Assembly: GCA_021234155.1 (NCBI GenBank)
Contig: JAJEKV010000015.1
Location: 5,341,194-5,405,193, forward strand
Reading direction: 5' to 3'
DNA length: 64,000 bases
Source of the DNA: Isoetes taiwanensis
Taxonomy: Eukaryota > Streptophyta > Lycopodiopsida > Isoetales > Isoetaceae
The translations under genes and the position numbers were made by a program. Positions 430-64,000 of the stretch are shown here, piece by piece; the first letter of the stretch is position 1, and each line of letters starts with the position of its first letter. A model generated the notes under the pieces. That model made no database searches. It saw only the letters and a program-made list of their open reading frames with translations, and was not told the DNA's origin.

Positions 430-1975
430 ACCTATAATGAGGCTCGACTAAAGGCGACAAATTTGAGTGGATAAAGGCAATGAATGATGAGTTAGCATCA
501 TTGAGGAAAACGAGGACATTTGAATTAGTAGATATACCAGAAGGGCAAAACATAGTGGGGAACAAGTGGCTATTTAAACTGAAAACTAGTCCTGATGGAA
601 AAACTCCAAAATATAAGGCCAGATTGGTTGCTCAAGGGTTTTCACAAAAAAAGGGCCAGGATTATGAGGAGACTTTCTCACCACTTGTTAAAATGAATAG
701 CATTCAAATGTTGTTATCCATAGCCAATGCTTGTGACCTTGAAATACATCACATGGATGTTATCTTGCTTTTTGAATGCTAAACTTGAAGAAGAAAATAT
801 ATATGAACTGACCTCACGGTTTTGAAGAAGGAGAAGGTAAAGTTTGGAAATTAAAAAAAGCGGTTTATGGGCTCAAGCAATCACCTCGAGAGTGGTATAA
901 ATGCATGGACTCTTATCTGATTGAGCAAGGGTTCAGTAAATTTAAAAATGATGGAAACATCTATAAATTTGTAGCAGGAAGTGAATGGTGCATTATTGCA
1001 CTTTATGTTGATGACAACATTATGATAGCAAAAGAAAAAAAGTGTTTAGATCAGTGCAAGAACATTCTGAATAGAAGGTTTAAAATGACAGATCTTGGAG
1101 AGTTGCAGAAATTCTTAGGTGTTGAAGTTAAAAGGAATCGAGCAAATAAAACTATAGTTCTCACTCAAAGGGGTCAAATTGAGAGCATGCTGAAAAAATT
1201 TAAGATGGAGCAATGTAACAGTTGTAAAACACCTGTTGTACCAGGGTATAAAATCTCAGAGCAAATGAGTCCTAAGGATGACATTGAAAGAGAAGAAATG
1301 ATTGGCACACCTTACAGATCATTGATAGGATGTTTGTCTTATGTTGCCAACTGTACAAGGCCAGACATATCACACATTGTTAACATTTTAAGCAGGTACA
1401 ATAATGATCCAGGACGAGGTCATTGGAGTGCAGCAAAAAGAGTGCTCAGATATCTTAAGGGCACTATGGATGTAGGGATAACTTACTGCACAAATAACAT
1501 GATCCTAAGCTCATACTGTGATGCAGATTGGGGAGGCTGCATTGACACTAGGAAATCCACATCTGGTTATCTAATGCTTCTAGGTGGTGGACCAATAGCA
1601 TGGAAATGTAAAAAGCAAAGTTCATTTGCTCTATCAAGTGCTGAGGCAGAATATGCTGCTGCCACTTTGTGTGTAAGAGAATTAATTTGGGAAAGAAGAT
1701 TGTTAATAGAATTTGGATTTCCACAATCTGAGGCTACTGTATTGTACTGTGACAGTACAAGCTGTATAGCAATGTCTAAGGATCCAGTTTTGCACGAGAG
1801 ATCCAAGCACATTGAGTTAGAACTGCATTTTATAAGAGAAGCAGTCAGTAAAGGGCTAGCAAAGTTGACCTATGTGAATACTACAATGCAGCTTGCAGAC
1901 ATTCTAACAAAAGTGCTAGCTGAAGGGAGATTTGCAGAACTCAGAAGATTAATTCAACATACGGATATAACATGA
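430..1975 (+). pseudogene. copia pol: reverse transcriptase and RNase H, frameshifted
   Basis: This encodes the RT (RVT_2 type) and RNase H end of a copia polyprotein, which copies the element RNA and removes the RNA strand. One piece (480-782) holds the first RT motifs, including NKWLFKLK and ARLVAQGF. A second, uninterrupted piece of 356 residues (905-1975) holds the RT active site YVDD at 1004-1015, then RNase H motifs CDADW, the SSAEAEY segment and a C-terminal ADILTK motif. The two pieces are joined by a stretch (about 770-905) that needs more than one frame change, and another break lies just before 480 at a GG/CG context. The stop is TGA at 1973-1975. The 3' half has no inactivating change, so the copy is fairly young or the breaks are sequence errors. 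Confidence 0.9.
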
Positions 1976-7048: not shown

Positions 7049-8071
7049 ATGGACACTTGTGTACCCCCGATCCAAACCCCCCACGGATGGAGACACCCCT
7101 CAAGCCGCGCCCAAGCCCGGGGCCGGTCTTCGACTAATGCCCGGGCATAGTCCCAAAGCAGCTGGTCTCGAGCAGACGAGCCGGCCCAGAGAATCAAGCG
7201 GATGGTTTACAAAAACGGCTCCAGAGCCGGATGGCAAGAACAAGGGAGAGGCCACTTCCATGAGGAGGGAGGCACGCGCGAAGGCCCAAGCAAGAAGATC
7301 AGACCCGATGGCAGACCAGACACACACGACAACCTTAAAACAACTAGAGCAGGAATCACATGCAACATGATCCGAATTGCAGACCTGGCAGAAGAGATCC
7401 AGTCCTCGGCGTTCCATGTACTCAGAAGACAACTGGCAGCAGAGAGGCAACGGATTGCAGAAATGGAGACCCGCACACAATAACTGGAAGACTGCACCCG
7501 TTTGACATACTTTGAAAGACAACAACAGAAGCAAGGTCTTGTTGATCTGCGGGCTCATGTGGACTTCCTCTCCACCATCATAGAGACCATGACACAAAAT
7601 AGGCAGCGTGTTGATCAAGAGACAATGGCAACCATCTCCTGCATCCAATCAGAAGTCGCAGAGGCCACCATCATCACGCGAAGCATGCAGGCTGCCTTTG
7701 AAGCGAGCCAATCGGAGTTGAGAGTGCTTCAGAGGAAGGCCGAAACACGAGACCAGGAGCTCCAAGCAACCGTCGCCCAACAAAGCAAGGGCTTTTATGT
7801 AGAAGCCCATGAACAACTGCGGCAATGCACACATGAATTGGCAAGGCAACAACAATTCCACCAGGAGCTGATCTCCCGACTACAGAGAGGAGAGGCCACA
7901 GCACGGGGCATGATAGATCCACATACCCGACAGCTTGCAAGATGCCAACCAGGATGGCCCACTGCTGCATCACCAAGCTGCCCCATGCCACCACCACCCC
8001 GCCACAGGCCACAACCCACGCCCCGCACACCACAACTAGCATATGCCACAGCACGAGCCCGACCACCTTAG
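7049..8071 (+). pseudogene. coiled-coil protein ORF, broken (possible transposon gag-like protein)
   Basis: The stretch is much richer in GC than its surroundings and reads as a Q/E/R-rich, helix-forming protein. It begins with a basic, low-complexity head (about 7059-7365), continues in another frame from about 7365, is interrupted by one in-frame TAA at 7481-7483, then stays open to 8071. The middle (7502-7920) has long runs without proline and regular hydrophobic spacing, as in coiled coils. The end is proline-rich. No zinc knuckle or catalytic motif is visible. It lies just upstream of the LTR at 8288 but outside that element. It could be a gag-like ORF of an older element or a broken host protein, and I do not recognise the family. 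Confidence 0.35.
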
Positions 8072-8287
8072 AGTTCCAGGAACGGAGACACAGGAGCCAC
8101 AATATAGTGGTGCGCGGCTTGATGGAAGAGGCAAGAGAGCACCTCATCAACCGACTCCAGACATAGATCCTGGCCCGGATGACATTCCACACGCCCTTAC
8201 ACATTGTTAGGGTGACATGCCATGGAGCCCAGCACCCTTACCGTCCCCGGTTAGTCACCTTCACAGTCAGGGACGCGCGACAGTGAG

Positions 8288-8911
8288 TGTGACGTTTCAA
8301 GTATTTATACGGTATACGTATAAATATATTGACACGTCACCCAATATAGATACGCCACCATGGGGTATGGTAACCTAGGGGTTAACCTAAAAGGGATTAA
8401 ATTAGCTATGCTAATTTAATTATTAAGGATAATAACCTATAATTTAGGGATTAATATTTAAAAGGGGTAATTAAGCTAATTATGGTTTGGGAAGGCGCCA
8501 CTGGCCAAACTCGATTAGCAAAGCATGGTGGATGCTAATTTGAACCATCAAGGTGGATCACCACCCCCATATCGACCATAATCGACCAAGAGGGCTGGCG
8601 CCACCTTTGAGGAGCCGACAAAGTGAGCACCACCTTTGAGGAGCTGAGCGTCACCTTTGAGGAGCTGAGCGCCTGCCAAGCTGAGCGCCACCTTTGCCAA
8701 GCATTACACTGTAGCCAAATTTGAACGTCAAGTCCGGGAAGATGGAAGCACCAAATGACAAGCGGTTCTAGCAGAATTGGGGTTGGTGGCTAGTATAGGC
8801 CGATATTCTAGGGTAGCGCCCCTGTTGGGCACTTGTTGTCTTGTTCCGCCTGCGTTCTCTCACATTGCTTTACTTGTAGGAACTAACCCTTGATTGTAAA
8901 GGTAAGTTCTC
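8288..8911 (+). repeat. 5' LTR of element A
   Basis: Aligned by eye with 16710-17368, most of its length matches closely, including the GGTTAACCTAAAAGGG stretch and a conserved AT-rich block. Just inside the 5' end, TATTTATACG and CGTATAAATA form a 10-bp inverted repeat around a 5-base loop. Differences from the 3' copy are often single bases beside CG. Confidence 0.8.
8596..8700 (+). repeat. minisatellite inside the LTR (~21-bp unit)
   Basis: Repeats of a unit like GCCACCTTTGAGGAGCTGAGC occur about four times. The same array is present with different copy number in the 3' LTR (17018-17159) and in the reverse-strand LTR of element B (24096-24240), so it is an inherited but length-variable part of this LTR family. 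Confidence 0.75.
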
Positions 8912-9753
8912 TTTATATTCCGATTCGGGTTTGCTCTTAAAGGATGGATGGATAGTTCTTTGCATAGTATTACTCGGAAATGGGGAAGTGGGGGGGTAGA
9001 GACCTACGAGCCATGATAGTAGGATGCTCCTAGGTAAATCCATGTACTTCCCATTAGATCGCCTGTGTACAAGAGACCACCGGGTGGGTAAGTAGGCGCT
9101 ATGGTGCGGCTTAGCACCGGAGAAGGGACCACGGTGGTGAAGTGGGGTGGGGTCTTGCCGCGAACATAAAAGGCTCCTTAGACTCCTACGATTGGGCTAG
9201 GCCTGATGGCCGATCCGCGTAGAGGGGCGGATATGTGTGCGACACTCCACGGGTGTAGAGGTGTGATCCGTATGGAGCATCTTGCACTTTGAGTAGATTT
9301 AGGGCCAGTAAGTCGGGTATGGATGCGGGGGTCGGTGATGCGGCACGTATTCTCTAGCTCACCCATGGAACCACTGTGATCCTAGAAGGGGCGCTTCACG
9401 ACTGCCTCATCGGACCGGGGCGTCATGAACCCTGGAGTAGACTCAAAAGGGTGATACCTTGAGTCTGCGTTTTGGAAGGCTATAGCGAAGCCATAGTGTG
9501 AATCGACCCATCGCAAAGTGTGCCTGGGGAGCGGATGGAGTGGACAACCCTAGCCGATGTTCTATGCCAGATAGCGCCATGTCAAGATTCGATCTGGCTG
9601 ATCTCTTGAGACCCTAGCGTCGGTCGATCCTCTTTGAGTCTCGGTAGGGGTAGAACCATGGGTTTGGGTGTTTTCCTTAGTATTAAATGCATATTCTTTG
9701 TTGTTGTCACTTGGATGGATGTGCCACCCCTCGTGGTGGTAAATTATGATATG
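8912..9753 (+). other. conserved untranslated leader of the element A family
   Basis: This stretch directly after the 5' LTR matches, in reverse complement, 23053-23919 next to the LTR of element B. Similarity begins at the LTR end (TCTTTATATTC) and stops near GGTAAATTATGAT. It has no long ORF in either copy. A primer-binding site and RNA packaging signals would be expected here, but neither could be pinned down. Confidence 0.65.
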
Positions 9754-10444
9754 ATTATGTTGTGTGCTAACCTCCAGCGGACGTAGGAGCCCCATTGAAA
9801 GCGTGGGCGAATGACCCCTCTCGTGTCCTTCACTTGAGCATCTTCTTATAGATGGCCCGAGTTAGGCGGAGGGCCACGCTCATGGTGAGTTGGTAAGCCA
9901 TGGGAGGGGAAATCCCGTATGTATCGTCCAAGTGTCGTATATGTTAGGGGAGGCGTCGCGGTGGTATCGAGCCATGATTTTGGTTGGACGGAATCATAGC
10001 ACTGACCAAATCTTTAACCCGATTAGTTTGGTAGTTGAGTGGGAGTTTAGGCTAGTTGGATTTTGCTTAACTTTTTGGTGATTTAGTTTTGTGTTAGGTG
10101 GATGTAATAAATTGTGAGTTTTAGGAAGTTTAGGCGATTTTGGAGGGAAAAAGTTGTGATTTGGAGGACCCAAGTTTGGAAGGGCTATAACGTTTTTGTA
10201 GGCAGTTCGGATGAAGGCGAGCGGCTCAATGGATCGGGCACCTCCCAAATACCCTAAGGAACCACGTCTCCAGGGTCGAAAAAGACAACAGCCGCAAGAA
10301 AAATCAAAAGGGCTGCTGTCTTTGGAGGTGTTTTTCTCGACGAACTGAAGCCGTATAAGGATCGCAGCGCCCCATACGGTCCGCCGTATAAAAATACGCA
10401 TCCGTCTTTAAAAAAAAAAAAAAAAATTTTTTCCTTTTCCGCCC

Positions 10445-16696: not shown

Positions 16697-16709
16697 AAGG
16701 TGGGGAGAA
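16697..16709 (+). other. polypurine tract of element A
   Basis: AAGGTGGGGAGAA sits immediately before the TG of the 3' LTR at 16710. The near-identical AAGGTGGGAGAA precedes the LTR of the minus-strand gypsy element at 27.26 kb, which supports gypsy ancestry for element A. Confidence 0.75.
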
Positions 16710-17368
16710 TGTGGCGTTCCAAGTATTTATCACGGTATCACGTATAAATATATTGACACGTCACCCCAATATAGATCGCCACCATGGGGGGTATGGTAAC
16801 CTAGGGGTTAACCTAAAAGGGATTAAATTAGCTATGCTAATTTAATTATTAAGGATAATAACCTATAATTTAGGGATTAATATTTAAAAGGGGTAATTAA
16901 GCTAATTATGGTTTGGGAAGGCGCCACCTGGCCAAACTCGATTGGCCAGCATGGTGGATGCTAATTTGAACCATCAAGGTGGATCACCACCCCCCATATC
17001 AGCCATAATCGACCAAGAGGAGTTGAGCGCCACCTTTGAGGAGCTGAGCGCCTGACAAGCTGAGCACCACCTTTGAGGAGCTGAGCGCCACCTTTGAGGA
17101 GCTGAGCGCCACCTTTTTGGAGCTGAGCGCCTGCCAAGTTGAGCGCCACCTTTGCCAAGCACGTACCTGTGTAGCCAAAGCTGAACGTCAAGTCCCAGGA
17201 AGATGGAAGCACCAAATGACAACGGTTCTAGCAGGAATTCAGGTTGGTGGCTAGTATAGGCTGATATTCTAGGGTAGCGCCCCTGTTGGGCACTTGTTGT
17301 CTTGTTCCATCTGTTCTCTCTGTGCTTTACTTGTAGGAACTAACCCTTGATTGTAAAGGTAAGTTCCT
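16710..17368 (+). repeat. 3' LTR of element A
   Basis: Partner of 8288-8911. It starts TGTGGCGTTCC and ends at GGTAAGTTC, after which similarity stops. The internal GCCACCTTTGAGGAGCTGA array (17018-17159) has more units than in the 5' LTR. Spot differences such as TACGG versus TCACGG sit next to CG. Confidence 0.8.
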
Positions 17369-23049: not shown

Positions 23050-24540
23050 AAAACCAAGGATCATAATTTACCACCACGAGCGGTGGCACATCCATCCAAG
23101 TGACAACAACAAAGAATATGCATTTAATACTAAAGGAAAACACCCAAACCCATGGTTCTACCCCTCGGACTCGATTGAGGATCGGTGGCCCGGCTAGGTC
23201 TCAAGAGATCGGCCGGACGAATCTTGACATGGCGTTGGCGGCGCCGGAACATCGGCTAGGGTTGTCCACTCCATCCAGCCCCTCACATTGCACACTGCGG
23301 ATGGGTCGATTCACGCTATGGTTTCGCTATAGCCTTCCCGACAGCTTGAGACTCAAAGGTATCACCCTTTTGAGTCTACTCGGGAGTTCATAGCGCCGGT
23401 CCGATGGCGAGTCGGGGAAGCGTCCCCTTCGGATCACGGTGGTTCCATGGGTGAGCTAGGGGAATGCCGTGCCGCATCGGCGACCCGCATCCATACCCGA
23501 CTTACTCACCCTAAATCTACTCAAAGTGCAAGATGCTCCATACGGATCACACCTCTACACCCGAAGGGAGGACCCATACCCGCCCTCTATGTGACCAGGC
23601 TATCGCCTAGCCCTTTGTAGGAGTCTCGGGGCCTTTTTATGTGCGTGCAAGACCCCACCCCCACTTCACCTGCTGTGTCCCTTCTCGGTGCTAAGCGGAC
23701 CATAAGCGTCGACCCGGTGGTCTCTTGTACCGCAAGCGCATCTAATGGGAAGTGCGGGGATTTTACCTGGGAGCATCCTACTATCATGGCTCGAGAGGTC
23801 TCTACCCCCTTAATTCCCCCATTTTGAGTAATACTATGCAAGAACTATCAATCCATCCTTTAAGAGCAAACCTAGAATCGAATATAAAGAGAACTTACCT
23901 TTACAATCAAGGGTTAGTTCCAAGTAAAAACCGCGAGAGAGCAGGCGGAACAAGACAACAAGTGCCCAGTGGGCGCTACCCTAGAATATCGGCCTATACT
24001 AGCCACCAACACAATTCACTGCTAGAGCCGTTGTCATTTGGTGCTTCCATCTTCACCGGGACTTGGCGTTCGGCTTTGGCTACAGTGCGTGCTTGGCAAA
24101 GGTGGCTTCGATTTTGACAGCGCTCAACTCCAAAAAGGTGGCGCTCGGCTCCTCAAAAAATGGCTTTCGGCTCCTCAAAGGTGGTGCTTTCGACTTGTGC
24201 GGATTCGGCTCCTCAAAGGTGGCTTTCGGCTCCCCTTAGGTCGATTATGGGTGATATGGGGGTGGTGATCCACCTTGATGGTTCAAATTAGCATCCACCA
24301 TGCTGGCCAATCGAGTTTGGCGGTGGCGCCTTCCCAAACCATAATTAGCTTAATTACCCCTTTTAAATATTAATCCCTAAATTATAGGTTATTATCCTTA
24401 ATAATTAAATTAGTACGACTAATTTAATCCCTTTAGGTTAACCCTTAGGTTACCATACCCCATGGTGGCGTATCTATCTATTTGGGTGGCGTGTCAATAT
24501 ATTTATCATTATCTGAGTATAAATACTTGGAATCGTCCGC
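23050..24540 (-). mobile_element. element B: 5' LTR and leader of the element A family
   Basis: Read on the minus strand, about 24540-23920 matches the element A LTR, and 23919-23053 matches the leader behind it, in the same order. Only this 5' portion is present: no second LTR or polypurine tract is found on the left. The outer LTR end (near 24534-24541) is altered compared with TGTG(A/G)CG. This is a truncated, inverted relative of element A. Confidence 0.75.
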
Positions 24541-31897: not shown

Positions 31898-32371
31898 TCA
31901 TTTTGCTTCTAAAATGTTATAGTTAGACAACTTCCAACCATAACGCCTATAACTAACCTTAATTTCTTCGATCTGCTCCATATTCGTGACATCAAAATTT
32001 TTGAAGGAGAAAGTATAACTATATACTTTGTTATCCGTCGTATTTTTCACCAAGGATTCAAGGACACAATTGCCACATTCTCCAGGCACATCTTCAAGTT
32101 TTAACAATATCTCATAGATGTATCTAACAAGCATCCAACAAGCAGAGACCTCATTACATATTGTATATCCTTCCATGACCTCAAAAAACCATTTCTTCTG
32201 TAATAGGTCTTGCTTCATATCATACCCTTCAAAACTAACATCATCCAATGAGATTGCTCTGAATTTTGCATTTGTATCTGTCATGCAAAATTCAAAACCT
32301 CCAACTCCCCGTTGGGGCCGAGTCATGTTAAAAAAAGAATAAGTTATGCAAATGATTTTCACAATAAGCAT
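31898..32371 (-). CDS. uncharacterised 157-residue ORF
   Basis: This uninterrupted frame has mixed, protein-like composition (Trp, Cys and charged residues spread through it), unlike the low-complexity frames around it. The more convincing part begins at an internal Met (about 32326), reading MTRPQRG, and continues to the stop at 31898. It has several Cys (including CGNC) but no motif I recognise. It abuts the truncated end of the gypsy RT. It may be the last exon of a spliced gene or an old transposon ORF, and no function is proposed. Confidence 0.35.
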   Translation of the reverse strand: MLIVKIICITYSFFNMTRPQRGVGGFEFCMTDTNAKFRAISLDDVSFEGYDMKQDLLQKKWFFEVMEGYTICNEVSACWMLVRYIYEILLKLEDVPGECGNCVLESLVKNTTDNKVYSYTFSFKNFDVTNMEQIEEIKVSYRRYGWKLSNYNILEAK

Positions 32372-32400
32372 AAATGTTTTTCAAAGGCAACATAAGTCAA

Positions 32401-34933: not shown

Positions 34934-36886
34934 ATGGCGGAAAGGAGAACTTCGAGCTCAAACCATGTCTTTGTTGAAATGCAATCTCATCTTGTGGGAC
35001 CAATCTTGGACCAAATTAATGAAGAACAAAGGAGGATTTTTGGAGAAAGCGAGGAAAGGAGATCAATTCATGAATTGAGGTATTCCTAACTTCAAAAATC
35101 ATCAGTTTATTCCCTCTAGATTAAAAGATCTTGAATCCCGAGCAGTCATTGGGTGTATTCGTCATGAGGGAGTGAAACTAAGCTATCTAAAAACAGAAAT
35201 TATGAAGATGGATAGGAAAGTTGAAATTTCTGGAATGTATTGGCTGCAATTCCCTTTCTTTGTGATAGAATGTGGAAATCCAAATCTGGTCCAATATTTC
35301 TTGAAAGCAAGGTACCATTCTGAGCCAACACGCAATTTTATTTTCAGAAATGGAACCCAAAATTTGATCCTAAAGACTTAAAACAGCTATACCATCCAGC
35401 AGCTTGCACTGTAGCAGGACTAAATCCTATGTATTGGCATGAGGATATTTTCAAAGAATTATTCACGGGAGTAGGTGAATACATAGGATGGGAAGGAGTT
35501 CCAGAAAGAGCTCCAAAAATCTGGGTTCAAATTGATATTCTGAAAGAAATACCAAACCAAGTTCAATACCAAGATTTCTTTGGAGAAATCAAGAGCTTAC
35601 CTCTGAATTGGCAGGGTCTTCCTGCACCATGTAATATTTGTGGACTAAGATTACATGGTGGGGGAGTATGTCAGGGTAAATGGATGAAGCACACTGATGA
35701 TCAAGCTATTACTGAAAACAAGGAAATTTCTCAGTATGAACACGAGAGCTTCAAAGCAAATTCATGGATGACTGTTAAGAAAAACAGGAATGGAAGTGCT
35801 AACAGAAAGGTTAAAAAACAGAAGGAAAAAGGAAAAACTGAAAATAAAGAAGATGGATCTAAAAACTTGTATGCTTTGAGGCAGGAATGGAAGAAAAAAG
35901 GAGAGCATAATAAAATAAATGGACAGATCAAAGTGTTGGTTAATGCTAATGGCCAGGGAGTGGAGAATTCCAAGGAACCTATAAGACCAAAAGGCCAGGT
36001 GTTGGAATTATCTATGGTCCCTATAAGTCCAAAGAATAGAAAGGGAAAAGACATTATTGAGCGAGAACCTCGACCCTCATATTCATCCAAGTACTTCAAT
36101 GAATGTTAAATATGATGGTCGACTTTCAAAATCTAATGTTGGCGGGAATAATGGGAAGGTCATTCACAAAGGGAGAAGGTTCAAGGTCTAAGTATCGGGG
36201 GAGGGCAGGTCGAGGGCAAGCGGATGTATGATATATTATTAGAATTGATGGAGAAAATTTGAAACCTTGGCAAATGGCGAAATAGTGAGGATATAGGATA
36301 TCAAACGGAAAAAGTGAGTGAGGGTGCATCAGAAATACAAGAAAATGGCATGGCTGAAAATGAAGACACTGGAGATGAAAAGGAAAATATTATTGATCAG
36401 ATCCAAACTGACTCTGATATAGTACCAGAAACACAAGAAGAGGGTTGTGATGATAACAAAAAATATAAGTCAGAGTTCAAGTTTTTCACAAGATCACCAA
36501 TGGAAATGAAGGATTTGCAAGATTCTATAAGCCCAACTGGCCTGGAAATTGGGATCAATAGACCAATAAGTCCAAATGGCCTGGGAATTGGGACCAATAG
36601 ACCAATAAGTCCAAATGGCCTGGGAATTGGGACCAATAGACCATTAAGTCCAAATGGCCTGGGAATTGGTAACAATAGGCCAATAAGACCAACTGGCCAG
36701 GATTTGCAGGTAGGGGATATGCAGGGCCAGGATATTAGTCCTATAAGTCCTTGTATGGAAGAGAATGAAAAAGAGATATATTATACTCCCCTTACCACCA
36801 AAAAGAAGATAATGAATGTCAAATTCTCCCCTAACAGTCCAGCTTTGAACCTGAGAGTACAGGAAAGGAAAAGATATCCAGCATGA
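34934..36886 (+). pseudogene. LINE ORF1: nucleic-acid-binding protein, frameshifted
   Basis: The likely start is the ATG at 34934 (MAERRTSSS), open to a stop at about 35085 unless the frame changes there. A second change lies near 35340. The central part (35429-36109) shows the DUF4283-like APKIWVQIDIL segment and a CX2CX4HX4C knuckle (CNICGLRLHGGGVC, about 35632-35673). A lysine-rich stretch follows. Between 36109 and 36314 several stops occur, then an open acidic and Pro/Asn/Gly-repeat tail runs to TGA at 36884-36886. ORF1 proteins of plant L1s bind the element RNA. Its stop overlaps the start of ORF2 in an ATGA. Confidence 0.8.
36520..36710 (+). repeat. in-frame 48-bp minisatellite in LINE ORF1
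   Basis: A 16-residue unit, NRPISPNGLGIGT with variants, is repeated about four times, encoded by 48-bp repeats with very little variation. Diverged relatives (PIRPKG, PISPKN) lie earlier in ORF1 at about 35980-36035, so the motif is older than the array. Confidence 0.85.
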
Positions 36887-37581
36887 AGATCATTACATGG
36901 AATATGAGAGGAATTAAGGGTCCTCTCAAAAGGAAAAGGGCTCTGATTGCCCTTAAAGAAATGAAGGCTGATATTATTTTAATGCAAGAACATAGACTTC
37001 CACATTTTGAGACATCTAAATTACATGATTGGATTAAACCTGGGGGAGATTCAGTCTGGTCTGCTGCTGAGGGCACCAAAGGTGGCATTTGTATGGTATG
37101 GTGGGGATTCAATTGTCTTCAAAAGTTTATACATCAATCGGGTAGATGGACTGTAGCAGTATTACAAAGAGGAAAGGAGATAATTGCTATTATAAATGTG
37201 TACGCATCTACTGAATCAAATGAGAGACAAGAACAATGGAAGGACATCCTACAATGGATTCAGAATGAAAATATCGATAATTGGATGATGGCAGGTGATT
37301 TTAACAATACACCAGTATGGGATCAGAAGCTGGGAAAGAAAATAAATATGGCTAGGAAAGAAAAGGATACTTGGGAAGCTCTGATGGAAAATTTTTCATA
37401 TATTCCTCCATCTACCTCAAACTATTATTCTTGGAGCAATAAAAGGAAGAATGAGGAAAGGGTTTTTTGCCTTCTGGATAGATTCTACATATGCAATAAG
37501 AATCTCAACACATGGGATGATGTTATGATATCTGGGGATATTGGCAATTCAATTTCTGATCATTTTCCACAGATTTTCTGA
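36883..37581 (+). pseudogene. LINE ORF2, AP-endonuclease domain
   Basis: This is the N-terminal, apurinic-type endonuclease that nicks target DNA to prime reverse transcription. Recognisable catalytic elements in order are ITWNMRG, MQEH, NVYAS, AGDFN, LDRFY and SDHF, so all expected acidic, Asn and His residues are present. The ATG at 36883 overlaps the ORF1 stop (ATGA), suggesting re-initiation. Translation breaks at 37581. A one-base shift continues the protein for about 40 more codons to 37694, so the break is a single indel. From there to 38652 the linker and first RT motifs (LTNATYKILAKILANRLKP, near 38475) are spread over several frames. Confidence 0.9.
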
Positions 37582-38652
37582 GGATAGGACTCGACCATGT
37601 AAAGGGAGGAACAAATATTCCATTCAAATTCAACACTACATTTCTTAGTAATAAGAGTTTCATTGAAGAATTTAAAGGTTTTTTGCAACTCTAGCTCTGT
37701 CGTGAGAGCGAGAATCTATGAAGGCATTCTTCTGAGAAAATGAAGATAGTCAAAATTTGGATCAAAAAGTGGGGTAAAGATTGGGCAATGAAAAGAAAAG
37801 AAAAGCGAGGGAATTATATGGGCAAATGAGGGAGATAAGAGGTAAGTTGTTCCTAGATAAAGATAATCAAATGTTACAACAGTTAGAGGAAGATCTTGAA
37901 AGAAAAGTTAAATTGGTCGAGGAGAATGAAGCAAAATCTCTAGCAGTCAGAAGTAGGAGTAAGTACATCAATGAGATGGATAAAGGAAATTCAGCTTTCT
38001 TTTTAGAATTTGCTAAAAGCGAGAATGGTCAACAATGGAATTGTACAGGTCAAAACTGTGTCAGGAAAAATGTTAGAAAAACAACAGGAAATAGAAGACT
38101 TCTTTCATGGTGAATACAGTAAGATTTTCAGTGAAGTCAGAGTACAACATGATGAGGTGGAAAAATTCTTTCAAGATATCCCACAGAATCCCCAAGCTAA
38201 TCAAGATGAAGACCTATTGAAAGAACCAGATGAAAAGGAAATATTGGAGACAATTAGGTCAATGGCAAAAGGTAAAAGCAGGGACGGATGGTTTTCGGCC
38301 GAGAATTCTATGAAGAGTTTTGGGATATTTTCAAGGATGATCTTATAAATTTCTTGCAAAGGGGCTTGGAAGGCAAAGAAATTAAACCACGCCATAAATC
38401 TTTGGACATATCACTCTAATTCCAAAGGTAGGTAATCCATTCTGATTAGGAATTTGGAGACCAATATCTTTGACAAATGCAACTTACAAAATATTAGCCA
38501 AAATCCTTGCAAATAGGCTGAAACCTACCTTACATAACATTATTAGCCCCTGTCAAATTTGCTTTCTTACCATGAGAGAAATATTTTGGAGAACTACATT
38601 GGTGCATCGGAGGGATTACCTTTGGAATGAGGTGTAATGCGAGCATAAATGT

Positions 38653-40665
38653 ATGTTACTCAAGTTGGATTTTCAAAGAGCTTATGATACAATTAATTGG
38701 CAATTCTTGGAAAGAGCTATGAAACATTTAGGTTTTCAAGATGAGGTGTATCAAAAAATCTGGAATTTCAACTCTACAGCATCATCAGCCTTGGTAATTA
38801 ATGGGAGTCCAACTAAGCTATTCCAATGTAGGAGAGGAGTAAGACAAGGGTGTCCTTTAGCCCCTTATTTGTTCTTAATTGTTGCTGAAATTGTTACCAG
38901 AATGGTTATTAATCTTCAACAACAAGGTAAAATTAAAACATTGGAGATGCCTGAAGATCAAGAACCTTTCACTATTATGCAGTATGCTGATGATACTTTT
39001 GTTTTTCTTAAACATGGAGATGAAAGTTTGGAGAACTTTCTGTATGCAATTGAGGAATTTGGAAAGGTCTCAGGGGTTAGACTGAACAGGAAAAAAAGTG
39101 CAATTATTTTGGATACCACGGATAAAGTTTTACAGGATATCAAGATTTTGGATAAGAATACCTCAATTTCCATTCTAGGTATTCCTTTGGCACTAAACAA
39201 AAATTTAGCTGGAGTATGGGAGCCGATTGTTTCCAGAATCAAACAGAAACTTAACAAGTATCCTGCTACTTTGTCTTTGGCTGGAAGAGTGGAAATTGCA
39301 AATGCAGTCATAAGTAGTACACATATTTATTTCTCTTCAGCAATTATTGGAGATAAAGGTTCTTACAACAAAATTGAGTCTGCTATTAGGAAGTTTATCT
39401 GGCAAGGTAATCATAAAGTGGCGTGGTCGGATTTAATAAAGGACAAAAAGAATGGTGGATTAGGATGCAAGGATCTTTTTCTTCAAGCACAGGCTTTGGC
39501 TGCTAAATTAGTGTGGAGGGCTATTTACTGTACCAAACCATCTCCAGCACTGAAGTTAGTCAAGTTTTGGATTGGGAAATCTCAAATAGTTGGCAGTCCT
39601 ACTATCAAACACCAACTTCCTGATTCAGCTTTTTTCAAGGTGAAACCAATTGCAGGTACATCTAAAACTATCAAAAGGATCTTGGAAGCTTGGAACGAGG
39701 CAAGTCTTTGTTACAAACCACCATTCATTGATGCAAATTGTCAGGAAGTACATATGTTTTGGCATCCAGATCTTGCTACAGAAGAGGAAGGATGCTTAGC
39801 ATTCAAGCATCCACAGAAATACATGCAATGGCATAATGCTGGTATCAGAAAGTTTGAAGATTTAAGAGAAGGCAACAGATGGAAAACTTGGGATGAGGTG
39901 GCAGTGATTACAAAGGGATCTCAAGTGGATAAGGAAATTTATAAAAAGATAAGGCTGAAAGTGGATTCAATAGATGAGTTTAGTGATAATTCCAATCAAT
40001 GGACTTTGAATGGAAAAGAGGTGTACTCTGTTAAGGATGTTTACAGATTAATTATAGGTCACAAAGATTCTAAGGCAAACAGTATGTGGAATTGTGAGGA
40101 AAAGACACTGGCCAAGATTATGGCAAAGGGTTGGAAAATTTATACAGCTAATAAAATTAAAACCTTTAGATGGTTAGTACTACATCAGAGCTTACCAACA
40201 AATGAGAAAAGGGCAAAGTATGATACCTCAGTGTCACCTATGTGTCCCCTGGGTTGTGGTCAAACAGAAAGTTCAAATCATGTCTTCACATGTCACAAGG
40301 TTGCAGACTTTTGGAGCTGGGCAGCACAGATAAATCAGGGAGCAATAACAGCTAATAACTTCCTTTCTTTTATGAATGCCAATACTCAAATCCTGAATAC
40401 TACTAGAATTCTAGGTTCATGGATTCTATGGAAACATAGAAATAGGGTTCAAATGGGAAACAAGAATCCTTCCTTATTCTGGATTAAAAAGGAGTTCATA
40501 TACATTATGACAGAGACAGCTGTGGCACACAAAATGGCAAAAGGAAAAAGCTATGATAGATCATGGGAGAAATTTGGTACCTTTCAGGGATATTTTGATT
40601 TCTATCTTACTAATCTTAATGCATTTGATGATGTATTGCACAGGAGAAATGAGGAGGCTCAATAA
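38653..40665 (+). pseudogene. LINE ORF2, reverse transcriptase and zinc-finger region (open 670 codons)
   Basis: The frame is open throughout. RT motif A (LKLDFQRAYDTINW) is at its start, motif B is GVRQGCPLAPYLF, the catalytic YADD lies at 38983-38994, and motif D is GVRLNRKKS. Thumb-like helices follow (FIWQG, GGLGCKDL). Near residue 500 begins the zf-RVT-like region, with RWLVLHQSLPT, CPLGC and SSNHVFTCHKV. RT synthesises element DNA at the nicked target. The first residues of the domain lie upstream in other frames, so the Met at 38653 is not the true start. Ordinary plant L1 ORF2 ends shortly after this zinc finger, as here. Confidence 0.9.
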
Positions 40666-41014
40666 TACAGGAAGTGGAGAAAGAATGATGGGAGTTGCTG
40701 AATATTCAGATGACGAATTCTCTACACTATCCAAGTCTGAGCAAGAAAATACATTCAAGCAGCTAAGAAGGGAAATGGTACATGCAAAAGCAATAAAGAG
40801 GGTGCTCAAAATCAGAGAGGTATGGAGGTTTAATAATCTCAAACCATACTTTGAGAGCCTGTTTCATAAATGGCAGCAGAAGAGGCAAGCACATGTCCTG
40901 CTGCTGCTTGATTTCACCAATTACACACCAGAGGATTTGGACATAATGCTGAAGATGTTTGGCAAGAATGACATCCCAGATTTCACCCTACAGGATGTGC
41001 TTGATGTGGTTTAG
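40649..41014 (+). CDS. LINE ORF3: 121-residue protein of unknown function
   Basis: This ORF starts at the ATG at 40649, 17 bases before the end of ORF2 and in a different frame, and runs to TAG at 41012-41014. It is uninterrupted although the LINE around it is not. The product has an acidic, Ser-rich head (SDDEFSTLSKSEQ), a long basic helical middle (KRVLKIREVWRFNNLKPYF) and an acidic C-terminal third (PEDLDIMLKMFG). No known domain is recognised. Composition is protein-like, unlike the 3' UTR after it. It could be a real third ORF translated by re-initiation, or a former C-terminal extension of ORF2 split off by one frameshift. Confidence 0.55.
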   Translation: MRRLNNTGSGERMMGVAEYSDDEFSTLSKSEQENTFKQLRREMVHAKAIKRVLKIREVWRFNNLKPYFESLFHKWQQKRQAHVLLLLDFTNYTPEDLDIMLKMFGKNDIPDFTLQDVLDVV

Positions 41015-57884: not shown

Positions 57885-58387
57885 TGTGGCGACCATATGG
57901 ATATTCGTATCATATGAACATTATAACCGATATGTACAAAAGATGGTCGTCACTACGAATGCAAAAGAGTAGTTGCATGGAGCAAATTTGAACTCGCGAA
58001 CCTTCCGTTCGCGAAGTCACACCTACTGCCAAGTGCCCTACCAATATTTGTTAAAGATATTCCCTCATGTCTTTCTCATATCACGGGGCTCTTTCGAAGG
58101 TTCTAGAATATTCTAGAACCTACATGCATCTTGTGACATTAATTTGACATGATCTCATCCATTGGAGTGGCCATCGACCATTGGCTCACATATATAAGGA
58201 GGCATCTCCTTCTTGTCGAACCATTCCGGTTCAAGCGCCCGATCTTGAGCCTTCTAGGCATCCGTCGTGCGTGTTCATGCTTGCCCGGCCATTGTACTCT
58301 TGATTCTGTTCATATATCAGATTCTTTGCGATCTTGGCGTATTTCTTCCGTATTTCGATGCGTATTTTTCGGCGTGGGTTCATGACA
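57885..58387 (+). repeat. 3' LTR of the chromovirus
   Basis: Partner of 52554-53073, with the TATATAAGG motif at 58191-58199 and the antisense tRNA-like block at 57980-58047. It ends CATGACA. The flanking bases do not form a clear target duplication, perhaps because the left junction was altered by the 210-bp duplication. Confidence 0.85.
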
Positions 58388-61300
58388 GAAAATGGTTAGT
58401 ATAGACAACAATGGCCTTTCAAATCTCATCTATACCATGCTCATGGGTGCAATGCCTTAAAAGCTCTTTGGAAGAAGCGAGCTAACGGGGCCTTCGGATG
58501 GCATATGCAAAGCATAGGTGCATACAAGTACAAATCGAGGAGGATCACAATCATCCGAAGCATCATGTTGGCGCATGCTTCCTCGCCAAGCTTTGGGGTC
58601 TTTGGGGTTTTGGAATAGGTAAAATTGCACACTTCAAAAGCCGGATCAATCCCATGCTTGAGTGGGATCCGCCCTCCTCATAACCAAATGCGGCGATTCT
58701 CACAAACATGCAACCTGCACAAACACTCATATCCTGCTTTTGATGGTGGAAGTAGTAGAAAGAAAAAAAATGGTGTTAAGTAGCGGCCCGGTGACAAAAT
58801 GGTTGAGGGCCTCTCAAGGCATTGGTCATAGATCCGACTGGGAGCTTTGATTTGATGCTATTAGTAAGGAAACGGGATAAGTAAGTAAAAGGTGAAGTGA
58901 GGTTCGGTGACCACCAATTCCTAGTTGATCGAAGTGTTGTATTTTCACCCTCCTATCTTGTTTGTTGCCCTACACCTCGGAATCAATCCCTATCTTCGAT
59001 GACATCCGAGTGTCACATCAATCATTGGCCGGTCGTAACCAAACAATGATATTCGGAAATGCAGAAAATAGAATATTTTAAACCAGGCTTCCATGATGCG
59101 GATTCATTGCATCTATTTACCTGAGATGCTTGCCTCGAATTGAGACAAACGGTCGATTTGGGGGGAGAGAGGGAAGGACAAACCATGTCAATGTTGCTAG
59201 CTAGGAGTTATTAAGGACAAAGCGCCACCACTTTCGTTCATAGCGCTTGGCATTTGAGCCTATCAAGGCTATCTTTGATTGGTCCGCCTAACTAGCCACT
59301 TCATATGATGTTGCACACTAATTACGTAGGAATTTTGGGATCATATCTCAGGAGATGATGGATATGTGGCACTCAATTGTGTCCCCCACAAACACTTCAT
59401 TGATATGTACTTTTGTACAATTTGTGAGCATGCTTATTACTGCTAAGGTTTCTCCCTTGAAAACCCTTCGGGACAAGGATTTTTAATCCCGACGTTTAAT
59501 ACATCTACTATAGTCTTTTTTCGGGTTCCATAGGCCATTAGATCGTCATCAAGGCGATAAAACTCATTCATTCAAAAATGCTCCATGAATAGTTCTTAGC
59601 TTTAAAATCCATCAAATGCAATATGTATGCAATGGACAAATATTGGGGATTGTTACATTAAAGAATAATTATAACTCTAGTATTGTGTATCTACATAATA
59701 TGTATAACTAGCCTAGTTAATATTGTGATAAAGTTTATATTGCCCACAATCCTAAAAAAGTTGGATAAAGGGCGATATTTGTGGAGGAAGTATTTAAACC
59801 TTGAAATCAAAAAGCTCGAGATTTCACCTATTTTTATTCTTGATATGGCATTCTTGCATTCTTGGAATTGTGCAAAACCCTCTTATACATCATTGTTTAT
59901 AAGAACCCGTTTCTATACATTCCGCTAGTTGTCTCTATAAGGTATTTTTTACTTAGTTAATTTATTGGAAAAAGAATAGCTCATTATAAAAACTAAAACT
60001 TTGATTAACCTTTGATTTTATAGTTTTTGAATTTATTCTATTAAGGAGGCATTCTAGGGAAAGGTCATCATCATCAGAAGTGAAGTGATGTTCCATTGAA
60101 ATTTGAATGAAAAAATGAGTACAATGACCCCATGGGGAGCAGTGATGAATCCCAAAATGAGTGAAAGAGGGAACAAAATGATAAACCCCAAATGAGTAAA
60201 ACAACAAATGCAACCCGGGTTAGACCACCGATATATAAGATAATTGTGTACAATGAGTTCAGGGCCCCCACATAGAACATTCAGAAAGTTGCTATACTAT
60301 AATGCTCCCCAAGCGCAACAATTTGCAATAGTCGGTCGCGCCACCCATCCAAAGCAGTGACCCCAAATCTGTAAAGCTAAGATACCGCTCTATGTGTCCC
60401 TCTTGGTCGCTCGTATAAAGAGCAACCTTATGCACATCAGAGAGCTCCAAACTACAAGACCAAACAACATGTGATTGTCAACTGTGTTAGGAGCCATCAC
60501 GGGCCAAAAGTCGACAAGCTACAAAAGTTGGACTAGACAAAATGAAAAAGAGCGATCCATGAGGATACCGGAAAACTATAGGACTACAGAGAGGAGAGGA
60601 AAATAGGCTCGACCCAAAGGCATATAAAAAGACCCCATGCACATCAATGAACTCCAAACTGCAAGATCTAACCATATGTGACTATCAATTGAGTTAGAAG
60701 CCATCCATGGGTAAAAATTGACAAGCTATAAAGTTGGACTAGAAATATAAAAGCACGGTATTGAAAATTGAAGAGATGATCAATAAAGGGATCCTCGAGG
60801 GAAGCCCGCGAGGGCCTTCTGTAGAGATAGAAAAAACAAGAGCTCGACCAAGGGGGCTTCCCTTTGTGCCCTCTAGAAGCATCATGTGCTACTGCTTGGA
60901 AAAAATCACGAAGCCCATCGGCCAACATTGAATGAAAAGTAAAATCCATATAGCGAGTAAGAAATTTAGGAGGGAACTCAGGTACAACAACAAGGTTTAG
61001 CTTAGAGGAAATGTCGATGAGAAATGCACGAGGGGAAGACACAAAGGCTTTTATGGGAGAAAGGGCCAAAGAAAACTTGTGCTATAGGGCTTGTGCCAAA
61101 GAAATCTTGGGTCCAAAAAGAGGTGGCGATAAAAGCGTCCCCTATCCCTAGAATGATGGTTCCCTTCTATATAAGAAGAGAACCATAGCATTCTAAGGAA
61201 AAGTCCTTATGCACAAATATCATATCGATACAAAGAGGAACCTCCCTCAAACCCCATCATAGATTGAAACCACAAAATTTGTTTGGCACAATTCAATGCA

Positions 61301-62170
61301 GGAAAAAATGTAACAATCATGAGGCGAAGCGGGATGCCAATGCAAATAGAAGGAAGGAAGGAAGGAAGGTGTATTTTTCACGTCAGAAAGCACTAGCCAG
61401 ACATCCTTTAGGACATCTGACGGCACATGGCATATGTTCTTGCAATCCCCTTCAAAGAACACAGCCCCTACAAGGATACCGGGGGCCAAAGGTCCTAAGA
61501 TGCCAAGATCTAGTGAGGGAAGGGTTCCAAAAACCACAGGACAAGCTGGACTACATAAGGCAAAGAAGGCGAAAATCGAAACACAAAAAGGACTATGGCC
61601 ACCACCAAAACCGTGAAATTAAAACTCTAGAACCAATGTACCAACAAACCTCTGAAGGAGAATACATAATGACAAGGCGCTATGGAAGTAAGAACAAAAA
61701 TACCTAACCTATATCATCCATGCATACTTAGGACTCAAAGCGAACTTTCATGAAGACGCTATAAAACCCCATAATAATAAATAAGAAAGATCAAAACTGA
61801 TATGATTCATGTATATTTGGGAAGTTGTAACAACACAGAATCGTAAACCGCTAGTGCCTTGAAATTCCTCGATTTTTGAGGCTTTGTTCCTTTTAGGTAA
61901 TTTTTTGGGTTTATTGTTTCTTGGCGCCCGCAAGAAAACCGCCATTACAAATAAAGCAGAACCATCTCATAATTTCATTGAACTTAAAATTTCATTCAAC
62001 TTGTTTTTTACATTCATTGAATCGCATTGCATACATTACAAAATTGCAATGCACTGCATCCAAAATTACAAAGCCTTCAAAATTACTTTCAAAGGTAAAC
62101 CTGTTTGACAAATCTCTGAAAGTTTCTAAGACGGTTTTCTAACACAATTGATGCTCATCACTTCTCTTCA
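58388..62170. other. no recognised gene; decayed intergenic DNA
   Basis: Only short frames without domains occur. A two-copy tandem repeat with 208-bp offset (about 60410-60550 and 60618-60760, landmark CTCCAAACT(A/G)CAAGA) and a (GGAA)n run at about 61350-61370 are the visible structure. From 61900 to 62170 the minus strand is AT-rich and would be the 3' UTR and downstream flank of the recombinase gene. Confidence 0.5.
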
Positions 62171-62289
62171 TCAATTTGGCAGATTTAAAATACCCTTTCC
62201 CTTGTCCAAGTATGGAACTAAAACATTGGAATCTGGAACCTGAAGAAAAGTACAGTTATTGAATGTAGCGCCAACAAAAGAGTGGCCAC
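62171..62289 (-). other. candidate further 3' exon of the recombinase gene
   Basis: A strong donor (GTTG|GTAAGT, exon end 62365) and acceptor (ATTGCAG, exon start 62289) define a 75-bp intron in the right orientation. The exon behind it is open for 38 codons in the phase used elsewhere in the gene and contains FVGATFNNCTF, a word I associate with tails of such recombinases. However, the frame before the donor is closed by the TAA at 62413. Reaching this exon in frame would need changes near 62415 and in a 7-A run near 62370. It may be the original C-terminus, cut off by small indels. Confidence 0.45.
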
Positions 62290-62412
62290 CTGCAATAGTA
62301 ATAAACCAAAATCAAACAACAAAATTTGAACAACTAATAGTAAACAATAAAAAGCAAAACTTACCAACATTTTTTTAACTTCAATAGTGTTGGAAAGTAC
62401 TTCTCAAGGTGC

Positions 62413-64000
62413 TTATTGATTTTGAAAGTTATCAAACATGTCATAATCAACTAAACCCTTGTACTCAGGTTCCTTTTCCACTTCAGCAACGTCAAGCATA
62501 TTTTTTTCTTCAACAAAACCAGCATTTACATGATCAGTAGCTGAACTACCACGAATAGGACCTGCAACAATTTAACATGTTCAATAAACTCAAATTAAAG
62601 AAAATCTACACTAAATTTACCTGGAGCAGTAGGCACAGCGACACTTGACAGGTTACTCACATGATCGCTAGATGAACTAGCATGAATAGGACCTGCAATA
62701 TAAAAGGGAGACATGATCACTAGATAAACTAGATGACAGCTTCAATAAACTCAAATTAAATGAAAACTAAACTAAATTTACCTGGAGCAGTAGGCACAGC
62801 GACATTTGACAGGTTACTCACATGATCGCTAGATGAACTACCATGAATAGGACCTGCAATATGAATAGGACCTACATGATCAGTAGATAAACTAAATACA
62901 TCTTGATTAAACTCAAAATAAAAAAAACTAGACTAAATTTACCTGGGCCAGGAATATCTGGAGCAGCACTATCTGGAGAAACCAAGCACTTGGAGGAATG
63001 CGAACCAAACATTGAGTTTTCTTTCCTTTTCATCATTTCAGCAAGCACATCAGAATATAACCTCAAGCTGCCGTCATCATTATACGGCTTGCTATTCACA
63101 CTCATGGCAGCGTTCACTTGAATATCCTTGCTTCGATCATACCTGCAACAGTAATGTAAATAATCAGTAAATAAAATAAAAAACAAACAGAATTAAAGAC
63201 GTGCACGTACTTTTCATATGACTCTGTATTCCGATGCCCTGTAACTAACTTCCCAATCTCTGGAGGAACCCCAGCCATTGACATACGCGTAACAGTCGAC
63301 ACGCGACCACTTTTATTGCAGATATCGGCATCAAGAAATGCTCCCATTTCTTTTATCCACTTCGAGATACCTTTCTCACCAACTCTACCTCTACTAAACC
63401 AAGACTGAACAAGAAAAACAGAAAATTAAAAAACAAATAAAAATTGAAAGGACATAAACTAAAACTTACCCCAGGTTTATAGTTTGCAATTGGCTGCAGA
63501 AATAATGGCCTTGGAGCAGCGTTCTCTTTAGGAGGAAGATGCCGAATGTATTGCTTGTATGTTAGCAAAAAATCCTCCTCAAAGCTCCAAATGGCAGGTC
63601 TAAAGTGGCTTGGATCATAGCGCGTCACAGATGTTCCCCATGTTTTACTAGTCCTCTCATTATACATGACATACTCTGAGCTACCATCAGATTCAAGTGT
63701 CAAGTCAACATCTTTCACTTCATAAAGCTCAGCAGCTCCCCTAATGGCAAATCTAGAGCACAAATAAAAACACAAACGTCTCTGAACACCTCGAGGAGTC
63801 TCTATCTTATAATCAATGTCTGCAAGGAGATCCCTCGCGCAAATTATAAGGAATTGCACGAGCCTTCTTTTCCTTCACCCCTATACCAGCCTTCCTAGAG
63901 CGGTGCGAGATGCAACAAATGCAAGCCTAGCTCTAACAAACAAGGGATCTCGCATGATATTGAAGCCTTCTCAAATCGCCACTTACGACCATCTTTGATT
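62413..64000 (-). CDS. Crypton/DUF3504-type tyrosine recombinase, spliced gene (5' end outside window)
   Basis: The gene encodes a tyrosine recombinase, which cuts and rejoins DNA through a 3'-phosphotyrosine. Exons, in minus-strand order: from the window end to 63470, 63404-63211, 63142-62943, 62853-62782, 62692-62621, and 62561 to a stop at 62413-62415. Introns are 59-89 bp, all GT...AG, and all joins keep frame. Catalytic residues: Arg in FAIRGAAEL (codon 63742-63740), a Lys in TSKTW, NKSGR (Lys where most families have His, then Arg), His in TGHR, and Tyr in EKY, whose codon is 63141-63139. AGVPPEIGKLVTGH is highly typical of DUF3504. The tail after Tyr is Ser/Pro-rich with repeats. Upstream of about 63860 the protein continues in other frames (VKEKKARAIP), implying at least two indels near CG-rich spots. 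It could be a Crypton transposon gene or a domesticated host gene. Confidence 0.85.
62621..62853 (-). repeat. tandemly duplicated exon plus intron (161-bp unit)
   Basis: Exons 62853-62782 and 62692-62621 are both 72 bp, phase 1 at each end, and differ at only a few bases. The introns before them are both 89 bp and also alike. Each exon encodes GPIH(G/A)SSSSDHVSNLS and a VAVPTAPG end. The following exon (from 62561) starts with a third, diverged version (GPIRGSSATDHV). Adding or skipping copies never changes the frame. Confidence 0.85.

Follow-up and report, generated by a model that had tools for sequence, protein, structure and literature searches.

The tyrosine recombinase (YR) gene near the right end of the window, a 64,000-nucleotide stretch of the genome of the quillwort Isoetes taiwanensis, belongs to a lineage of mobile, expanded and intron-bearing YR transposons of the Crypton kind, with an end architecture of its own and a lysine in the active site. 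We put at roughly 0.8 the probability that this gene encodes a DNA transposon's recombinase and is one partly broken copy of a large lycophyte family, with the mechanism proposed below. An earlier note on the window had offered either a mobile Crypton-type lineage in a plant or a domesticated host recombinase; the first is supported by our analyses and the second is not.

Structure and State of the Recombinase Gene

The gene has six exons on the minus strand (63823-62413) which form a single continuous frame ending with TAA at 62413-62415 and are separated by five GT-AG introns of 65, 68, 89, 89, and 59 bases:

63824..64000, minus strand: upstream coding part, frames broken in the window copy and open in relative L045
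63470..63823, minus strand: exon 1 as aligned to relatives (frame open to 63874), with Arg I (IRGAAE) and the beta-hairpin Lys (TSKT)
63211..63404, minus strand: exon 2, with NKSGR (Lys replacing His, and Arg II) and TGHRN (His III), stopping just short of the tyrosine
62943..63142, minus strand: exon 3, with the catalytic tyrosine at its start (YEK/YDRS, the slash marking the exon joint)
62782..62853, minus strand: exon 4, a 72-nt tail exon present in duplicate (first copy)
62621..62692, minus strand: exon 5, second copy of the duplicated 72-nt tail exon
62580..62946, minus strand: tandem exon-intron duplication (161-bp unit, 2.3 copies) covering exons 4 and 5 and their introns
62413..62561, minus strand: exon 6, including the TAA stop

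Both the six exons with consistent GT-AG introns and the full R..K..[K]xxR..H..Y set that the earlier note had read from the letters are borne out. The GT-AG ends are preserved in 20 of the 25 cells given by five introns in five other long copies (the partial copy L038 excluded), and the spliced product carries RFAIRGAAE, ERTSKT, NKSGR, TGHRN, and YEKYD, which supply R, K, K (for His), R, H, and Y.

The window copy has 346 codons open across the six exons, more than any of the five other long copies aligned, whose first open stretches are 98-174 codons long. Exon 1 as listed is incomplete because relative L045 reads on upstream, a region where the window copy has several frame changes (63824-64000 and beyond). 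One stretch of this decayed N-terminal part, upstream of the window, aligns with the distant relative L002 (E 3.9e-5), and the DUF3504 profile described below gave the N-terminal part no support. All six long copies compared from the subfamily with the 23-bp inverted repeat are broken, the window copy upstream and the other five within the six exons. Since the assembly is described, in the published account's passages on sequencing, as Nanopore reads with polishing (PMC8566536), some of the frame breaks in the window and in other copies may be sequence errors. A seventh exon was considered at about 62171-62290 (minus strand; GGHSFVGATFNNCTF), which by eye resembles the C-terminal tail of animal relatives and is in phase with the duplicated exons, and was rejected when a tail HMM gave no support.

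Protein Family and Catalytic Residues

Profile comparison confirms that the window gene is predicted to encode a DUF3504/Crypton-type tyrosine recombinase. The Pfam model for this domain (PF12012, DUF3504) alone matched the window protein weakly, with 14.1 and 14.5 bits relative to a cut-off of 29.7. As bait we used a cnidarian KIAA1958-like protein, which itself matches DUF3504 (3.1e-25) and is 26% identical to the window protein over 207 aligned positions. An HMM was then made from 120 DUF3504 proteins listed among the 845 that the bait retrieved; most of these are unnamed, and the named ones are mainly cnidarian, with one from a scallop and one labelled as a bacterial MAG. With this HMM the spliced window protein scored 55.9 bits (E 1.6e-16, 977 targets), which upholds the DUF3504/Crypton assignment of the earlier note, though Pfam alone remained below its cut-off. 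Exon 1 matched profile positions 153-257 and exon 2 positions 269-341, and because the two exons match singly and in consecutive order, intron 1 separates neighboring parts of a single domain. Among 774 window ORFs only the two holding exons 1 and 2 scored; the best of the others had an E of 0.63, and none of 200 shuffles did better than that value.

The protein database yielded no homolog of the window protein, either among 211 word-sharing candidates at E up to 0.001 or among 1945 at E up to 10. Likewise, there was no match in viral contigs and a prokaryote genome collection, nor was there an Rfam match in the window.

The HxxR histidine is kept in 117 of the 120 profile proteins (as NHSxR) and is a lysine in the window protein and in L002. 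Across 30 loci, including the window copy, the first arginine is found in 27 and the beta-hairpin lysine in all 30, and the lysine replaces histidine in 27 of the 29 loci covered at that position. The corresponding counts for the remaining residues, among loci covered, are 23/29 for the second arginine, 25/28 for the histidine, and 28/28 for the tyrosine. The R-H-R-Y tetrad of Cryptons is, accordingly, represented by its two arginines and tyrosine, with Lys in place of His.

Genomic Setting

The window gene is inside a 22-Mb contig and therefore not on a contaminated contig end. Its surroundings are like those in land plants: zf-RVT, RVT_1, Exo_endo_phos, and Copia RVT_2 exceed their Pfam cut-offs, and DUF4283 is below its own. 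The L1 and Copia matches agree with the plant retroelement surroundings described in the earlier note, and two elements could be delimited:

35324..41014, plus strand: plant L1 retrotransposon, fairly intact, its ORF1 region with a 39-bp tandem repeat at 36527-36698 (PNGLGIGTNRPIS)
441..1975, plus strand: Copia reverse transcriptase/RNase H remnant (RVT_2, 4e-34 for 812-1972)

Two further features of the window are an unclassified dispersed repeat, with three copies that are 84-89% identical (8291-9750, 16707-17366, and 23060-24537, the last inverted), and a 160-aa ORF at 31901-32380 (minus strand) that lacks a Pfam match and reads like a real protein fragment.

Contamination by a fungus, oomycete, or animal would agree with the named hosts of described Cryptons, which in Table 1 of PMC3212892 are fungi, animals, and stramenopiles. 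Its probability is nonetheless negligible given the 22-Mb contig, the L1 and Copia neighbors of plant type, the spread of its copies over many contigs of this genome, and the grouping of these copies in a tree apart from animal-type proteins; the fungal or oomycete contig end that the earlier note had raised is contradicted by the same contig and its retroelements.

Inverted Repeats and Copies in the Genome

The gene is bracketed by a perfect 23-bp inverted repeat (IR), AACCGCTAGTGCCTTGAAATTCC, the sole perfect 23-base IR listed for the region taken with the flank beyond the window (L007, 10 kb). The element it bounds is 3,654 bp and extends 1,499 bp beyond the window end:

61846..61868, plus strand: 23-bp inverted repeat marking the gene-3' terminus, matched perfectly by a partner beyond the window end, equivalent to 65477-65499 (L007 6477-6499)
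61844..64000, minus strand: gene-3' part of the transposon, whose end is the TA beside the IR as taken from the L030 empty-site comparison

Extension past 64000, advised in the earlier note as the way to the start codon and element ends, recovered the far IR arm; the coding frame of the window copy proved broken upstream and its outer 5' end was not located.

As a control, random 6-kb pieces were drawn from the window, and 6 of 100 also had flanking IRs that were perfect over at least 20 bases. Single IRs therefore count for little, and it is the convergent pairs across the genome that carry the argument. The genome searched comprised 1,658,258,908 bases in 1110 contigs, in which the 23-mer has 21 exact matches (10 forward, 11 reverse; reversed control, 0). 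These form nine convergent pairs with lengths of 3654, 1270, 839, 3825, 1434, 1429, 3697, 3656, and 3336 bp, five long and four internally deleted, and leave three single matches. With up to three mismatches allowed, two of the single matches pair as well (L039, 1262 bp; L040, 3749 bp), giving 11 paired copies for examination. The short copies match the window element at its ends only and are, for this reason, deletion derivatives. Repeat pairs with and without the gene occupy different genomic sites. Comparison of flanks indicated that L029 and L036 are the same on both sides and that L032 and L040 have the same 5' flank; owing to these common flanks, the 12 copies fetched represent about ten insertions.

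With the window protein as the query, the genome gave 263 exon-level matches at more than 100 places, with identities from 98% to 36% among the matches listed, counts that rest on 150 of 2257 candidates scored. The earlier note had proposed that a copy count would separate a transposon from a single gene, and the 21 exact terminal repeats, nine convergent pairs and 263 matches point to a mobile element and speak against a single gene.

The Outer 5' End and Its Hairpin

In eight of the 11 paired copies, as determined by flank comparison, the element extends 54-132 bp beyond the 5' IR to T(A/T)TGTGCTAGG (one with a mismatch). The flanks of copies that start in this way are unlike each other, duplicated sites excepted. 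Flank comparison did not find the outer 5' end of the window copy, L035, or L039. A 20-base motif from the 5' end, TGTGCTAGGTARCCGGCCGG, has 76 exact matches in the genome (control, 0), and the more diverged copy L072 begins with a close form of it.

Between the outer 5' end and the IR lies a hairpin, for which folding with DNA parameters gave z values of -6.2 (L034), -4.0 (L036), and -10.5 (L031), and a hairpin outside the 5' arm of the relative L073 had a z of -13.1; for each of these four stretches, which were picked for their palindromic look, none of 200 shuffles was as stable. Among the copies folded, a hairpin is consequently present outside the 5' IR in two subfamilies whose sequences are unlike.

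Target Sites

The joined flanks of one copy, L030, match two related places that run through the junction, on C909 (90%) and C1018 (86%). To the right of the junction these alignments continue for 28 and 19 bases, and about 50 bases to the left of it there is an 11-base gap. As aligned, the insertion occurred without loss at the junction, the empty site reading CATGGTTTCGTCC and the occupied site CATAGT/TATGTGC...GCGGTT/TACGTCC (slashes mark the joints). At this one site the bases common to element and target would be (T)TA, with both joints exact if the site had an A where its relatives have T. The same search with L031 yielded no empty site.

The 3' joint reads TTTACG in seven of the 12 fetched copies. 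The same letters recur in L071, L072, L073, and L074, four loci that are dissimilar in other respects. The CG of this joint looks like target choice, because in the L030 empty sites it belongs to the target. No exact duplication of at least 2 bases was found directly beside the IRs for any of the 11 copies, and no constant direct repeat surrounds the copies with the 23-bp IR. At the outer ends the bases are variable and T-rich, and the direct repeat is not constant between copies, L030 fitting a 2-3-bp (T)TA. Compared with the 4-6-bp terminal direct repeats of Crypton F and S, the repeat in L030 is 2-3 bp and inconstant over copies, and that in L073 is 23 bp.

The latter, a perfect direct repeat, flanks L073 (C1037:4902400-4908399) at 798-820 and 4175-4197, unlike the situation in the window subfamily, and may be either an att-like site or a larger target duplication.

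Diverged Relatives and Selection

The more diverged relatives vary in their ends. L073 (34% identity) has its own 31-nt IR (94%), with arms about 3.2 kb apart, and L074 (40% identity) has its own 27-nt IR (93%), the IR spacing in the two being about 3.1-3.2 kb. In L072 there is a 12-nt IR (E 4.5, weak) and hairpin arms are visible by eye; the 3' end is seen in L071, and L075 has no clear IR. A scan for perfect flanking IRs of at least 14 bases was positive in two of these five relatives, with none at L071, L072, or L075. A candidate tRNA-like stretch next to L073 could not be confirmed.

IR-like ends of its own and the same NKxxR lysine are found in a second family (C606, C31), which is far diverged. 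Its member L002, assembled from nine hand-picked exons, is open for 650 codons without a stop, with the end of the last exon unsettled, and its 31.3 bits exceed the Pfam DUF3504 cut-off of 29.7. By eye, the C606 family and the window gene differ in intron positions. A tree of 34 proteins separates 14 plant sequences from 20 of animal type (100/99); the tree was made without fungal, oomycete, or insect Cryptons, and long branches make the placement of L002 and L073 unsure.

Adjoining the L002 gene there is an inverted second copy, L005 (C606:38000-47999, reverse strand, 7582-10000). Its exons 2-7 have many small indels (28 runs), and seven of its eight introns are 92-100% identical and one is 86%, with six indel runs in total. 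This is the opposite of the pattern expected from decay, and is perhaps a polishing or assembly effect.

Among 15 loci, 52 of the 105 possible pairs were usable (dS >0.05) and had a median dN/dS of 0.17; in the dS bin of 0.15-0.4 the median was 0.52 (8 pairs), and no usable pair includes the window copy. Judged by these ratios, purifying selection on the coding sequence is shown for most pairs.

A domesticated host gene of Crypton origin, comparable to the animal ZMYM, KIAA1958, and QRICH1 genes, might likewise have several exons, an open spliced frame like that of the window copy and introns kept between copies. We consider domestication extremely unlikely, however, as there are many copies with element ends, along with deletion derivatives, and the catalytic residues are mostly kept, whereas the animal domesticated DUF3504 genes, in the parts of PMC3212892 that treat them, lost the tyrosine and second arginine.

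Proposed Mechanism and Alternatives

We propose that the YR would bind the inverted repeats and the 5'-end sequence and join the element ends into a circle. This circle would insert into short T-rich targets sharing a few bases with the circle joint, through one strand-exchange overlap and without a long target duplication. The short, internally deleted copies would move in trans, and the HxxR lysine would stand in functionally for the histidine normally found there and be a hallmark of the lineage. Movement by the element's own YR is likely, as we infer from the sequences, and the intron pattern common to the copies fits movement at the DNA level and not through an RNA intermediate.

Counting against this proposal, IRs and a 2-3-bp direct repeat (TTA in L030) would also fit a YR gene that was captured or carried by an inverted-repeat transposon and moved in trans by a DDE transposase. 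There is a precedent in MarCry-1_FO of Fusarium, a composite in which, according to the entry in PMC3212892, a Crypton is joined with a Mariner, with 16-bp TIRs and TA duplications, and the convergent IRs and possible TTA duplication at L030 are what such a carrier would leave. The quillwort element resembles MarCry-1_FO in having a Crypton-type YR within an element with TIRs, but movement of the latter is explained by its Mariner DDE transposase, TIRs, and TA duplications (PMC3212892, same entry), and in the quillwort element no DDE gene was noticed, Pfam having covered the window exons and ten window ORFs. In addition, three subfamilies have related YR genes between IRs whose sequences are unlike, so that capture would have had to happen repeatedly; most pairs show purifying selection on the recombinase; and, because the 5' hairpin sits outside the IR, the IR is internal to the 5' end and not the extreme end of the element. 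For these reasons we regard transposition by a DDE enzyme as unlikely and favor movement by the element's own YR.

DIRS elements are also YR elements, some with inverted termini, and a relic of a DIRS- or Ngaro-type retrotransposon would account for a YR gene between IRs. The ALOG genes of plants are evidence of a past arrival of such elements in streptophytes (PMC3537659). DIRS1-type elements and ALOG thus resemble the quillwort element in that tyrosine recombinases are concerned and that a YR element had entered streptophytes before. The differences are that DIRS elements are based on a reverse transcriptase and that ALOG keeps the DNA-binding domain only, whereas the quillwort element is 3.65 kb with a YR gene as the only gene seen, and no reverse transcriptase was noticed among the ORFs listed for 58000-64000. 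The copies also have common introns, which indicates that movement did not pass through RNA, and it was DUF3504/Crypton proteins that the profile matched; a retrotransposon relic is for these reasons scarcely credible.

Comparison with Cryptons

Kojima and Jurka (2011; PMC3212892) described Cryptons from fungi, animals, oomycetes, and a diatom as elements without TIRs or long direct repeats and with a very low copy number in most hosts. The quillwort family is like Cryptons (A, I, F, and S) and animal DUF3504 genes in that a single DUF3504-type YR gene is found in a DNA-level element, with short direct repeats at most at the outer termini and with non-autonomous derivatives, which exist for Cryptons as well (PMC3212892). 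It differs in its multi-intron genes, its 5' hairpin, the lysine in place of the HxxR histidine, its lycophyte host, and its IRs, which are of 23 bp in nine pairs, 31 nt in L073, and 27 nt in L074, with none clear in L075. Its copy number is also far from very low, with at least 76 copies as counted by exact matches to one end and more than 100 places by protein.

The earlier note had held that a plant lineage of this kind would be poorly described. In agreement with this, the matches listed from the open-licence literature included no description of a plant Crypton family, and none of elements that have a YR alone together with IRs and a hairpin at their ends. The word Crypton has zero occurrences in both Isoetes genome papers. 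Crypton labels in plants have, however, been printed: a 2015 survey names Crypton as one of the superfamilies that occur in every group it studied (PMC4438587), and an atlas of plant TEs has 535 entries called Crypton in one column (PMC8729191). We take these to be annotation labels.

A Possible Likeness to Integron Cassettes

Integron cassettes are mobilized with attC hairpins and the tyrosine recombinase IntI, the hairpins varying in sequence with their pairing kept. By analogy, the quillwort elements may be compared with them in having a tyrosine recombinase beside a DNA hairpin of variable sequence and kept pairing; integron cassettes differ in being bacterial and in forming cassette arrays, and the likeness drawn is one of architecture. 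It is conceivable, if distinctly unlikely, that the 5' hairpin is a recombinase substrate as attC is for integron integrases, with one end of the element recognized as a folded single strand and the other as double-stranded DNA. If this folded-strand reading were true, its marks would be the active site with Lys for His and the hairpins of two subfamilies, unlike in sequence but conserved in pairing, and the elements would constitute a separate order of YR elements and not a Crypton.

Implications

Because the ends of the element are marked by IRs, a hairpin, deletion derivatives, and an empty-site pair, in a family found at more than 100 places of one genome, the substrates for a first in vitro recombination assay can be taken directly from the sequence. 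The recombinase family that gave animals several regulators now extends to an expanded, mobile lineage in a lycophyte.
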